This document shows, piece after piece, positions 21,266-43,966 of a stretch of 46,143 nucleotides of DNA (the stretch's first letter is position 1; every line of letters begins with the position of its first letter). Source of the stretch: Chloroflexota bacterium (GTDB lineage: Bacteria > Chloroflexota > Anaerolineae > Anaerolineales > UBA11858). The stretch spans positions 1 to 46,143 of the forward strand of contig JABGRQ010000128.1 in NCBI GenBank assembly GCA_018648225.1. Direction: 5' to 3'. The position numbers were made by a program, and so were the translations under genes. The notes beneath the pieces were generated by a model. That model saw only the letters and a program-made list of their open reading frames with translations, was not told the origin of the DNA and ran no database searches.

Positions 21266-22612
21266 ATGCCCACCAAAATCTCCAACATCACCTCCCGTTT
21301 GCTCGAAAACGAACTTCTCAGCCGGATTATTAAAAATGCCGGCTATTTGCTCAGTGCTACCGGACTTTCTGCCGGAATGAGCGTTTTTCAGAGCATCTTT
21401 GCCGCCCGCTTGCTGGGTCCGGCGAATTTCGGTATTCTGGGGGCTATCACGCAATTTACCAGTGTAGCCAACCGCTTTGCGTCCTTCCGTATGAACGAGT
21501 TGGTTGTGCGCTATGTGGGGAAGTATCAGGAAGATGGCGACCTCCCTCGGGCGGCGGCAGTCTTCAAAATGGCAACCCTCCTCGAGATCAGCGGTTCGCT
21601 GATTGCGCTGGCGCTCATCTGGGGGTTGGCACCCCTCGGGGCGCAGTATTTCGCCCAGGATGCCAATCTGGCGCGCTGGTTTCAACTCTATGGCCTAATC
21701 ATCTTTGCCAATTTTATCTTCGAGACCGCCAGCGGGTTACTGCAAATCTTCGATCGTTTTCGTATCATTGCCGCCGCTACCGTTGCCCAAAGCGCTATAA
21801 CGCTGGTTTTGATTCTTGGCATCTTCATTGCCAAAGGTGATCTTGCTGCGGTAATTATTGCCTATATGATCGGTAAGATCGCTTACTCGCTTTCTATCAG
21901 TACCGCCGCGTTGTTTGAAGCTAGCCGTAATTGGGGTTCGGCGTGGTGGCGCACGCCATTGGGTATACTTAAATCCGAGCGGCGTAGTTTACTGACCTTT
22001 GCCTTCAGCACCAATCTGAGCAGCACCGTCAGTCTGATCGCCAAAGATAGCGAAGTGCTGTGGGTTTCGGCCTTTTTAGGCCCGACGCAGGCAGGATTTT
22101 ATAAAACTGCTCTGGCAATCACCAATCTGCTCCAACTCCCCGTCAGTCCGTTACCCAAAGCCACTTACCCGGAACTGGCGCGTGAGATTGCCCGTCGCAA
22201 TTGGGAAAATGTGCGCTACGTACTGCGCCAGGGATCGCGTCTGGCTGCGATTTACTCGATCCCGGTGACACTGGGTTTGATCGTTTTTGGTAAGTGGATT
22301 CTTGAAATTAGCTACGGCGCGCAATACCTGCCCGCCTATCCGGCGCTGGTGGTGCTGGCATTGGGCTTCACATTTGTTAATATTTTCTATTGGAACCGTG
22401 TCGCGCTGCTTTCGTTGTCTCGCCCGGTTTTTCCCACGGTGATTAATACTATTGGCATGATCTTAAAAGTGACCACCATTTTCTGGCTGGCTGAACGCTT
22501 TGGCGCCCTGGCCTTCGCCGGTTTGCTGATTGCCTACTATGTGTTCACCAACGGGGCGGCGGTGCTGCGCGTCTTCGCCGATTTGCGCACGCGCCCTCAA
22601 AGGGCGGCATGA
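21266..22612 (+). CDS. Wzx-type polysaccharide flippase
   Basis: A 448-aa membrane protein of the MATE-like/polysaccharide transporter group (oligosaccharide flippases). It has roughly 12 hydrophobic helices. The N-terminal region (NAGYLLSATGLSAGMSVFQS, then LLGPANFGILGAITQF) is typical of Wzx/RfbX, and TLGLIVFGKWILEISYG marks the second half. It should flip the undecaprenol-linked repeat unit to the outer face. The start at 21266 has no clear Shine-Dalgarno. Its 3' end abuts the composite repeat at 22626-22730. Confidence 0.85.
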   Translation: MPTKISNITSRLLENELLSRIIKNAGYLLSATGLSAGMSVFQSIFAARLLGPANFGILGAITQFTSVANRFASFRMNELVVRYVGKYQEDGDLPRAAAVFKMATLLEISGSLIALALIWGLAPLGAQYFAQDANLARWFQLYGLIIFANFIFETASGLLQIFDRFRIIAAATVAQSAITLVLILGIFIAKGDLAAVIIAYMIGKIAYSLSISTAALFEASRNWGSAWWRTPLGILKSERRSLLTFAFSTNLSSTVSLIAKDSEVLWVSAFLGPTQAGFYKTALAITNLLQLPVSPLPKATYPELAREIARRNWENVRYVLRQGSRLAAIYSIPVTLGLIVFGKWILEISYGAQYLPAYPALVVLALGFTFVNIFYWNRVALLSLSRPVFPTVINTIGMILKVTTIFWLAERFGALAFAGLLIAYYVFTNGAAVLRVFADLRTRPQRAA

Positions 22613-22625
22613 TGAGTTGTTGGCG

Positions 22626-22730
22626 GCCCTCACCCCCTCTCCCAATTTGGGGAGAGGGGAGCCGGTTATGTATGCAACGAGCATCCTCCCCCTCTCCTGT
22701 TTTTGGGAGAGGGGGCCAGGGGGTGAGGGC
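22626..22730. repeat. composite palindromic element with two hairpins
   Basis: The outer arms GCCCTCACCCCCT (22626-22638) and AGGGGGTGAGGGC (22718-22730) are a perfect 13-bp inverted repeat. Inside are two hairpins, CCCCTCTCCC paired to GGGGAGAGGGG and CCCCTCTCC paired to GGGAGAGGGG. The right arm lies just before the GT4 start codon and supplies a purine-rich GTGAGGG where a Shine-Dalgarno should be. It shares its CCCCTCACCCC core with the copy inside uvrA. Confidence 0.85.
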
Positions 22731-22733
22731 TTC

Positions 22734-23861
22734 ATGAAAATCGTACTCATCGCCCCCACCTATTTACCATCTCGTCGCGCCAATACCATTCAGACGATGA
22801 AAATGGCGCAAGCATTCACCGCCTTAGGGCATACCGTGCAGGTGGTTGTGCCGCAGAACCGTGCCGACCATCAACCTGCATCATGGGATGATCTGGCGCA
22901 GCACTACGGTTTGCAGCAGCGTTTCGCCGTGGATTGGTTGCCCGTCAATCCACGCTTTCGCAGCTATGATTACGGCTTCAAGGCTGTGCAGTACGCCCGA
23001 CGTCAGAAAGCTGATTTAATTTTCACGCGTTTGCCACAGGCCGCGGCTATCGCCAGTTCATTGGGGATGGATACCATCTTCGAGATTCACGATCTACCGC
23101 GTGGGACGCTTGCCCCGTGGCTTTTGCGCCGGTTCCTGAGCGGAAATGGCGCGCGCCGCCTGGTGGTGATCACTGAATCCCTGAGAGAAGCCATAACCCA
23201 GGCAATCGTAACGCTGCCCGAGGCTCCCTTCACGCTCATCGCTCCCGATGGCGTAGACCTGGCTCGTTACGCCGATCTGCTCGACCCCCCCGATGCTCGC
23301 GCTCAACTCTCACTTCCACAGCGCTTTACAGTGGGTTATACCGGGCATCTCTACGCCGGACGCGGCGGAGAGATGCTCCTCAAGCTGGCTAAACAACTGC
23401 CTGAGATTAATTTCCTGTTGGTTGGCGGCATTCAAGATGACGTGACTCGTCTGCGTGATGCTGCCGCTGAACTTGGCAATCTCACCCTGACCGGTTTCGT
23501 CCCCAACGCAGAATTGCCGCTTTATCAGGCGGCTTGTGATGCCCTGCTGATGCCCTATCAACGGCGTGTGGCGGCCTCTTCTGGCGGCGATATTGCTCGT
23601 TACCTTAGCCCGATGAAACTTTTCGAATATCTGGCCTGTGGACGCGTCATCCTTTCCAGCGATTTGCCAGTATTACGTGAAATTCTCAACGAGAACAACG
23701 CCCTGCTGCTCCCCCCGGATGATGTGAATGTCTGGGCTGAAGCCCTGCGCGCACTTGCTGCCGATCCTGCTCTCAGGGATAAATTGGCTACACAATCTCG
23801 CCGCGATGCCCAACAATATGACTGGAACATCCGCGCCGCCCTCATTCTGGCAAACCTTTAA
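22734..23861 (+). CDS. GT4-type glycosyltransferase
   Basis: A 375-aa cytoplasmic GT-B glycosyltransferase. The N-terminal domain begins MKIVLIAPTYLPSRRANTIQ, GYTGHLYAGRG marks the start of the second Rossmann domain, and LPLYQAACDALLMP and SPMKLFEYLACGRVIL form the donor-binding end. The ATG at 22734 is preferred because the preceding 68 in-frame codons translate the repeat element into low-complexity peptide. The sugar donor and acceptor are unknown. It belongs to the polysaccharide cluster. Confidence 0.85.
   Translation: MKIVLIAPTYLPSRRANTIQTMKMAQAFTALGHTVQVVVPQNRADHQPASWDDLAQHYGLQQRFAVDWLPVNPRFRSYDYGFKAVQYARRQKADLIFTRLPQAAAIASSLGMDTIFEIHDLPRGTLAPWLLRRFLSGNGARRLVVITESLREAITQAIVTLPEAPFTLIAPDGVDLARYADLLDPPDARAQLSLPQRFTVGYTGHLYAGRGGEMLLKLAKQLPEINFLLVGGIQDDVTRLRDAAAELGNLTLTGFVPNAELPLYQAACDALLMPYQRRVAASSGGDIARYLSPMKLFEYLACGRVILSSDLPVLREILNENNALLLPPDDVNVWAEALRALAADPALRDKLATQSRRDAQQYDWNIRAALILANL

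Positions 23862-41029: not shown

Positions 41030-43966
<2,937 letters not shown>

Follow-up and report, generated by a model that had tools for sequence, protein, structure and literature searches.

How is a glycosyltransferase gene translated when a long repeat ends 3 nt ahead of its start codon? This question is raised by a stretch of 46,143 nucleotides (hereafter the window), one contig of a Chloroflexota MAG (G000) whose assembly measures 4.02 Mb in 226 contigs. A preliminary description of this DNA had proposed that the repeat, a 105-bp element between a flippase gene and a GT4 gene, carries the only plausible Shine-Dalgarno (SD) sequence of the latter and could regulate it through its hairpin. 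The closest named relatives of the window GT4 are found in MAGs of Anaerolineae and other Chloroflexota. The features concerned are:

21266 to 22612, plus strand: flippase gene (Polysacc_synt family, from Pfam and sequence), with its stop TGA 22610-22612 within ATGA 22609-22612.
22734 to 23861, plus strand: GT4 glycosyltransferase gene (from Pfam), its start set by homology with relatives.
22626 to 22730, no strand assigned: composite element, a tail-outward inverted pair of BoxC / triplex-motif (TM) repeats with a 28-nt core (from sequence, fold and the TM table of PMC4666352).
22626 to 22659, minus strand: left BoxC unit, with third-strand arm 22626-22638 and hairpin 22634-22659, the linker between arm and hairpin being collapsed (from sequence).
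22688 to 22730, plus strand: right BoxC unit, with hairpin 22688-22715, linker and third-strand arm GGGGGTGAGGGC at 22719-22730 (from sequence and the consensus given in PMC4666352).

The architecture given in the preliminary description can be read directly in the sequence. The outer arms (22626-22638, GCCCTCACCCCCT, and 22718-22730, AGGGGGTGAGGGC) are exact reverse complements over 13 bp, each of the two inner hairpins has perfect 10-bp arms, and TTC (22731-22733) separates the right arm from the GT4 ATG at 22734. The inner-hairpin pattern has two occurrences in the window, where 100 shuffles give an expectation of 0.00, and the predicted RNA fold of the element reaches -68.7 kcal/mol (z = -5.96), a stability equalled by 0 of 200 shuffles. 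Both inner hairpins have the pyrimidine-purine form CCCTCTCC/GGAGAGGG that marks BoxC, and the third strand GGGTGAGGG stands beside the hairpin after a short linker in the right unit (GGAGAGGGGGCCAGGGGGTGAGGG), that of the left unit having lost its linker. Judged by its sequence, the element is shown to be a pair of BoxC repeats (also PIT or TM repeats), a known family. According to the sections of PMC4666352 that we drew on, BoxC has been described since the 1990s and is known from E. coli, cyanobacteria and more than 260 genomes; Table 1 of that paper includes inverted pairs from E. coli. The 13-bp perfect arms also give the 105-bp element terminal inverted repeats of the MITE type. As a candidate target-site duplication, CATGA is found at 22608-22612 and at 22733-22737; the left copy lies 13 nt from the arm, and ATGA is expected at both places anyway. 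Membership of REP/BIME with RAYT was considered and rejected, since the genome has just two Y1_Tnp genes and neither 3.3-kb locus contains BoxC. A role as terminator or promoter was also dropped, as a consensus scan of 22400-22900 gave nothing of the kind and no sigma-70-like promoter.

The hairpin pattern was matched at 49 places in the genome of the window, and a pattern of hairpin half plus arm at 53, with a backwards control of 0 in both cases. When 21 genomes of the family were surveyed, the hairpin pattern was present in 10, at 2 to 49 copies each, and the backwards control gave 0 except in G003 (5), G017 (1) and G020 (1). Presence of BoxC differs between close relatives, judging from the one site at which G000 has the repeat and G014 has other DNA at the same junction. 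A blastn search of E. coli genomes with the 46-nt right half found no match though E. coli has BoxC, the query being probably too short or masked. The 75 arms from the window and the other G000 loci divide into 42 within predicted genes and 33 in intergenic DNA. Fifteen intergenic arms face a predicted gene start, at 4 (the window), 12, 13, 14, 18, 22, 23, 24 and 24 nt, and farther. These distances make the window a one-off, its arm standing where an SD should be. A general SD role for BoxC arms was rejected: only one of the 15, that of the window, lies less than 12 nt from its start, and at least four of the eight others at 12-24 nt have a separate GGAG (L137, L144, L156 and L160, at -8 to -10, between repeat and start). 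In the sections of PMC4666352 that we used, the E. coli copies are likewise reported to show no preference for a given spacing from ORFs.

Several BoxC copies of this genome sit in frame within long ORFs, and Pfam confirmed as their hosts an aminotransferase, a valyl-tRNA synthetase, a GHMP kinase and a pterin-binding enzyme, with UvrA in the window. The UvrA case is a BoxC-like unit at 43182-43223, read in frame in uvrA (minus-strand ORF 41030-43966) as a 15-residue peptide between the UvrA interaction and DNA-binding domains. In-frame units in conserved-looking genes were noticed at L104, L105, L113, L119, L122, L129 and L132 (aminotransferase, GHMP kinase and pterin-binding enzyme by Pfam, the others named by eye).

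A search of 400 genomes of the order with GT4 gave 134 matches at threshold. The junctions sampled were 88, made up of 8 from the window's own family and the best 80 by score of the other 126, with the exception of G203, whose match lacks the N-terminus. Nine of these had no flippase upstream (some stretches end at contig ends) and one had no start, which left 78 usable junctions. The gap between flippase and GT4 was 15 nt or less in 62 of the 78, and exactly -4 (ATGA) in 34; four gaps measured 26-63 nt and ten about 1,150-1,200 nt. Apart from these ten, gaps of more than 63 nt were observed just in the window (G000, 121 nt) and in its closest relative (G014/L024, 139 nt), so the window lacks the -4 overlap of an ATGA-coupled pair. 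The ten longest gaps have room for another gene, and in L182, L189, L192 and L211 the intervening ORF has ATGA at both ends. An SD core was found in 11 of the 40 overlapping or abutting junctions (gaps of -10 to 0), compared with 78 of 183 predicted genes from the window and G000 loci and 215 of 2,560 random 17-mers. A set of named genomes agrees with this, 26 of its rows being at -4, though it counts some genomes twice (L016/L024, L019/L025, L021/L026 and L022/L039). From this gap distribution and the scarcity of SD cores, comparison of the sequences shows the ancestral arrangement to be an overlap, usually ATGA and mostly without an SD. The repeat has thus not replaced an ancestral ribosome-binding site. 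The preliminary description had named a conserved SD at this spot in relatives lacking the repeat as the result that counts against it; such relatives have none, and here its proposal stands.

The closest relative, L024 (NIOZ-UU35, the same DNA as L016 of G014), is 94% identical to the window in the flippase and 87% in GT4. Their alignment is good as far as the flippase ATGA, becomes poor beyond it and recovers at the GT4 ATGA. The insert of L024 (139 nt) lies at the same point, is unrelated to BoxC and holds AACGCGAAT inverted repeats. These form a second repeat family at the junction (L024 4885-4950); among 7 genus genomes searched, 5 contain parts of it. Both inserts have ATGA at each end with an open frame between, of 48 codons in L024 and 42 in the window, the latter being:

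22609 to 22737, plus strand: proposed relay ORF of 42 codons, its ATG overlapping the flippase stop (ATGA) and its stop TGA 22735-22737 overlapping the GT4 start (ATGA).

Given the flippase ATGA, shuffled gaps show such frame and openness with a chance of 0.114 for the window and 0.033 for L024; the product, about 0.004, is generous because the test was devised with the window already in view and one event may underlie both inserts. Relays were present in 2 of 75 co-directional gaps of 80-250 nt from 46 loci (the window and L024) against about 1.6 expected from a slid control, and in 6 of 71 such gaps of 30-79 nt against about 2.9. In the own genome, 20 co-directional gaps carry BoxC; one of them (the window) has the ATGA-to-ATGA form, and TTG-started frames occur in L144 and L149. 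In L031, from the named set, 17 codons span a gap of 42 nt, and the four junction gaps of 26-63 nt among the 78 hold no relay frame. These counts do not support relay frames as a feature common to BoxC-bearing or long gaps, and we regard the relay frame of the window as a suggestive, post hoc result. Termination-reinitiation was almost abolished in reporters by gaps of about 20 nt, as stated in the part of PMC10666635 that we draw on, and a gap of 121 nt thus needs either a bridge or independent initiation. Between the window and L024, GT4 shows dN 0.084 and dS 0.697 (dN/dS about 0.12) and the flippase dN 0.033 and dS 0.389; by this sequence measure GT4 is under purifying selection, though the selection may predate the insertion.

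Comparison with relatives shows the BoxC pair to lie in a former flippase-GT4 overlap, and the insertion separated two genes which were presumably coupled in translation by that overlap, as is generally known of such pairs. We propose a relay: ribosomes ending at the flippase ATGA would restart on the 42-codon frame crossing the repeat, unfold the stem on their way and end at the GT4 ATGA, and the opened arm would offer to the start ATG 22734 the following motif:

22725 to 22728, plus strand: GAGG, candidate SD at -9 of the GT4 ATG, within the outer stem.

Across the 183 predicted genes, the commonest position of GGAG is -10 (17 genes) and that of GAGG is -9 (7 genes), which places the GAGG of the window in register. 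The starts of these genes, GT4 excepted, come from our own caller, which ignores SDs; as the frame of TTG 22617 stays open through the repeat, the caller had put the GT4 start there, and we replaced this start by 22734 on homology. The longer stretch GGGGGTGA occupies -15 to -8 of the GT4 ATG. It can pair with the consensus anti-SD, with one G-U pair, the consensus being assumed as the 16S contig ends before the 3' end. The 16S rRNA itself (L013 1501-2197) is without an internal stretch, 697 nt matching model positions 9-873, which is probably an assembly fault. In all seven folds, some with upstream stretches covered, the right arm (22719-22730) has an unpaired probability of 0.27 or less at 11 of 12 positions (all but A22726). 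An arm so paired should work poorly as an SD by itself, free initiation should be weak, and a repeat-supplied SD should work mainly when ribosomes arrive from upstream. The earlier idea of the repeat as ribosome-binding site of GT4 hence survives as regards the register of its GAGG, and not as regards an arm sufficient on its own. Translation of GT4 from ATG 22734 through the relay, with the repeat supplying the SD, is to us the most likely reading, which we hold with moderate confidence; the frame and the registers are read off the DNA, and the relay is what we infer from them.

It is possible, although we think it rather unlikely, that translation of GT4 is independent, with new 30S subunits initiating at the right arm as SD and the hairpin acting as putative regulator. 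The usual register of GAGG, the capacity of GGGGGTGA just upstream to pair with the presumed anti-SD, and the absence of an SD core from 29 of the 40 overlapping or abutting relatives are all in keeping with such initiation; it is opposed by the pairing of the arm at all three fold lengths, which persists when upstream stretches are covered, and by the separate GGAG motifs that accompany other BoxC arms. We consider it improbable that the repeat is a neutral insertion, with GT4 poorly or hardly expressed or served by an unseen promoter. The great stability of the fold would suit such an insertion, as would the free spacing of BoxC from ORFs in E. coli and the single copy at SD distance in the own genome, but the GT4 ORF is intact, its low dN/dS points to selection (with the reservation on timing given above), and the interval scanned holds no promoter-like site. 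The right arm is not, as had been claimed, the only plausible SD, since the element contains another candidate:

22658 to 22670, plus strand: rival start, with GGAG 22658-22661 and in-frame ATG 22668, which would add 22 residues to GT4.

Least probable, by a little, is that GT4 starts inside the element at this ATG with a partly repeat-coded N-terminal extension: its GGAG stands at -10, the commonest GGAG position in the gene set, no stop intervenes before GT4, of three folds the two longer leave most of the codon unpaired, and other BoxC copies of the genome are read in frame within proteins, but the GGAG is largely paired, and neither L024 nor the gapless relatives L017, L018, L020 and L026 have an upstream in-frame start.

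Locally, then, a known repeat stands in an unusual spot. The larger lead is a link between BoxC and DUF559 genes, whose proximity in the sequences suggests how the repeat spreads. In valS, a DUF559 domain (PF04480) stands between two BoxC units whose tails point outward, as they do in the window. This BoxC-DUF559-BoxC arrangement lies in frame in the valyl-tRNA synthetase of four genus genomes (L112 1501-1932, G000:C47; L246; L248; L249), and the insertion is seen in the translations from G014, G016 and G019. DUF559 matches occur at 19 places, spread over 9 of the 21 family genomes; DUF559 was present in 8 of the 10 genomes with a BoxC hairpin and in 1 of the 11 without (Fisher p 0.0019, ignoring kinship). 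An Anaerolineae set of 12 DUF559 genes remained after dropping the valS orthologues L246, L248 and L249 and the weak or partial matches L252, L257, L261 and L262. A pyrimidine-purine hairpin lies within 150 nt of the DUF559 domain in 9 of the 12 (the misses being L247, L250 and L260), and the opposite, purine-pyrimidine hairpin is near none of them. Other C/G-run palindromes were seen by eye around several DUF559 genes without typical BoxC (L244, L247, L250, L253, L256 and L260), perhaps representing sister repeat families.

The plasmid collection has 44 records that match DUF559, of which 22 were examined, chosen for diversity and not at random. The hairpin was within 150 nt of DUF559 in 18 of the 22 (misses: L263, L268, L276 and L282); L263, from E. 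coli, has an imperfect BoxC 12 nt from DUF559. The proximity criterion was set after viewing the first loci, and the query was taken from a BoxC-flanked copy; among plasmid loci opened after the BoxC-DUF559 idea arose, 10 of 12 had the hairpin. Hairpin density was 4.67 per kb within 150 nt of DUF559 against 0.23 beyond 600 nt, and a background of three 50-kb stretches of three of these plasmids gave 7 hairpins in 150 kb (0.047 per kb), an enrichment of about 100-fold. Specificity is weakened by the opposite hairpin type, which is likewise enriched around DUF559 genes of the plasmid set, if to a smaller degree (6 of 22 loci; 1.05 per kb nearby against 0.08 far away). BoxC-class hairpins adjoin DUF559 genes in Chloroflexota, Pseudomonadota, Cyanobacteriota and Deinococcota. 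The DUF559 gene of E. coli K-12 is ycjD (1,351,407-1,351,760), 168 nt from the BoxC at 1,351,205-1,351,239, which is entry 9 in Table 1 of PMC4666352. Of 5,426 E. coli genomes, 3,330 carry at least 80% of the 1.3-kb ycjD region. No clean empty site at ycjD turned up in E. coli; in 22 of 60 records among the matches listed, the homologous stretch ends at query base 364, 42 nt short of the BoxC. The fabI-ycjD-sapF region is variable in E. coli (L285 1406-1440; L286; L287), with a TetR regulator and an RND efflux gene after fabI in two other strains. In viral contigs, no DUF559 relative was present among 20 pattern matches.

A solved relative of DUF559 is 3hrl, an endonuclease-like protein (E 3.5e-23). 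A Vsr-like EDxHD homing endonuclease, I-Bth0305I, was reportedly described by Taylor in 2011. We know of no cleavage of BoxC. DUF559 is frequent in Vsr-like endonucleases, according to a portion of PMC12907096, and one DUF559 gene was placed in the EDxHD homing endonuclease family in the part of PMC9403480 that we cite. It would be reasonable to hypothesise, with a confidence that we put at middling, that BoxC-class repeats are the ends of DUF559 (Vsr-like PD-(D/E)XK) nucleases and are spread by them, the autonomous form being BoxC-DUF559-BoxC as in valS. A tblastn search of the window found no DUF559 match, so the 105-bp element would be a cargo-less derivative with the same tail-outward ends; such elements would be read in frame in coding DNA, and kept in an ATGA junction only if the relay frame is preserved and an SD offered. 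The BoxC-DUF559 link was found in no title or abstract among the literature matches listed and may be in print elsewhere; it is absent from the abstract, matched passages and section 15 of PMC4666352. No title or abstract among the matches was on point for repeats serving as ribosome-binding site or SD, and no mover of BoxC is named in the portions of the literature covered.

If the hypothesis is true, a DUF559 nuclease is the mover of a repeat known since the 1990s. The linkage already makes the spread of BoxC a bench question involving one small nuclease and one short DNA. The local case illustrates how two genes can stay intact with a repeat lodged in their tightly coupled operon junction, which offers a simple test case for ribosome relay across a stable stem. 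Compared with known systems, the element has the units of BoxC / PIT / TM as set out in PMC4666352 (CCCTCTCC-loop-GGAGAGGG, short linker and GGGTGAGGG third strand), and differs from the published copies in the sections consulted in that it offers an in-register SD at an operon junction; a further difference is the large share of arms within predicted genes in this genome (42 of 75). REP/BIME with RAYT (Y1 transposase) shares short palindromes and inverted pairs with BoxC, whereas the gene linked to BoxC here is DUF559. Rickettsia palindromic elements (RPE) are, we take it, a different repeat from BoxC. They are palindromic repeats placed in frame in genes (from a part of PMC10969869), and BoxC behaves likewise here. 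The Vsr-like EDxHD homing endonucleases include, as cited, one DUF559 gene, and what was seen here between DUF559 and BoxC is linkage. Finally, translational coupling at ATGA overlaps (as treated in part of PMC10666635) and minigenes (as treated in part of PMC8708949) are stop-start arrangements that pass ribosomes on, as the proposed relay would, but the relay frame would carry the coupling across an inserted repeat.
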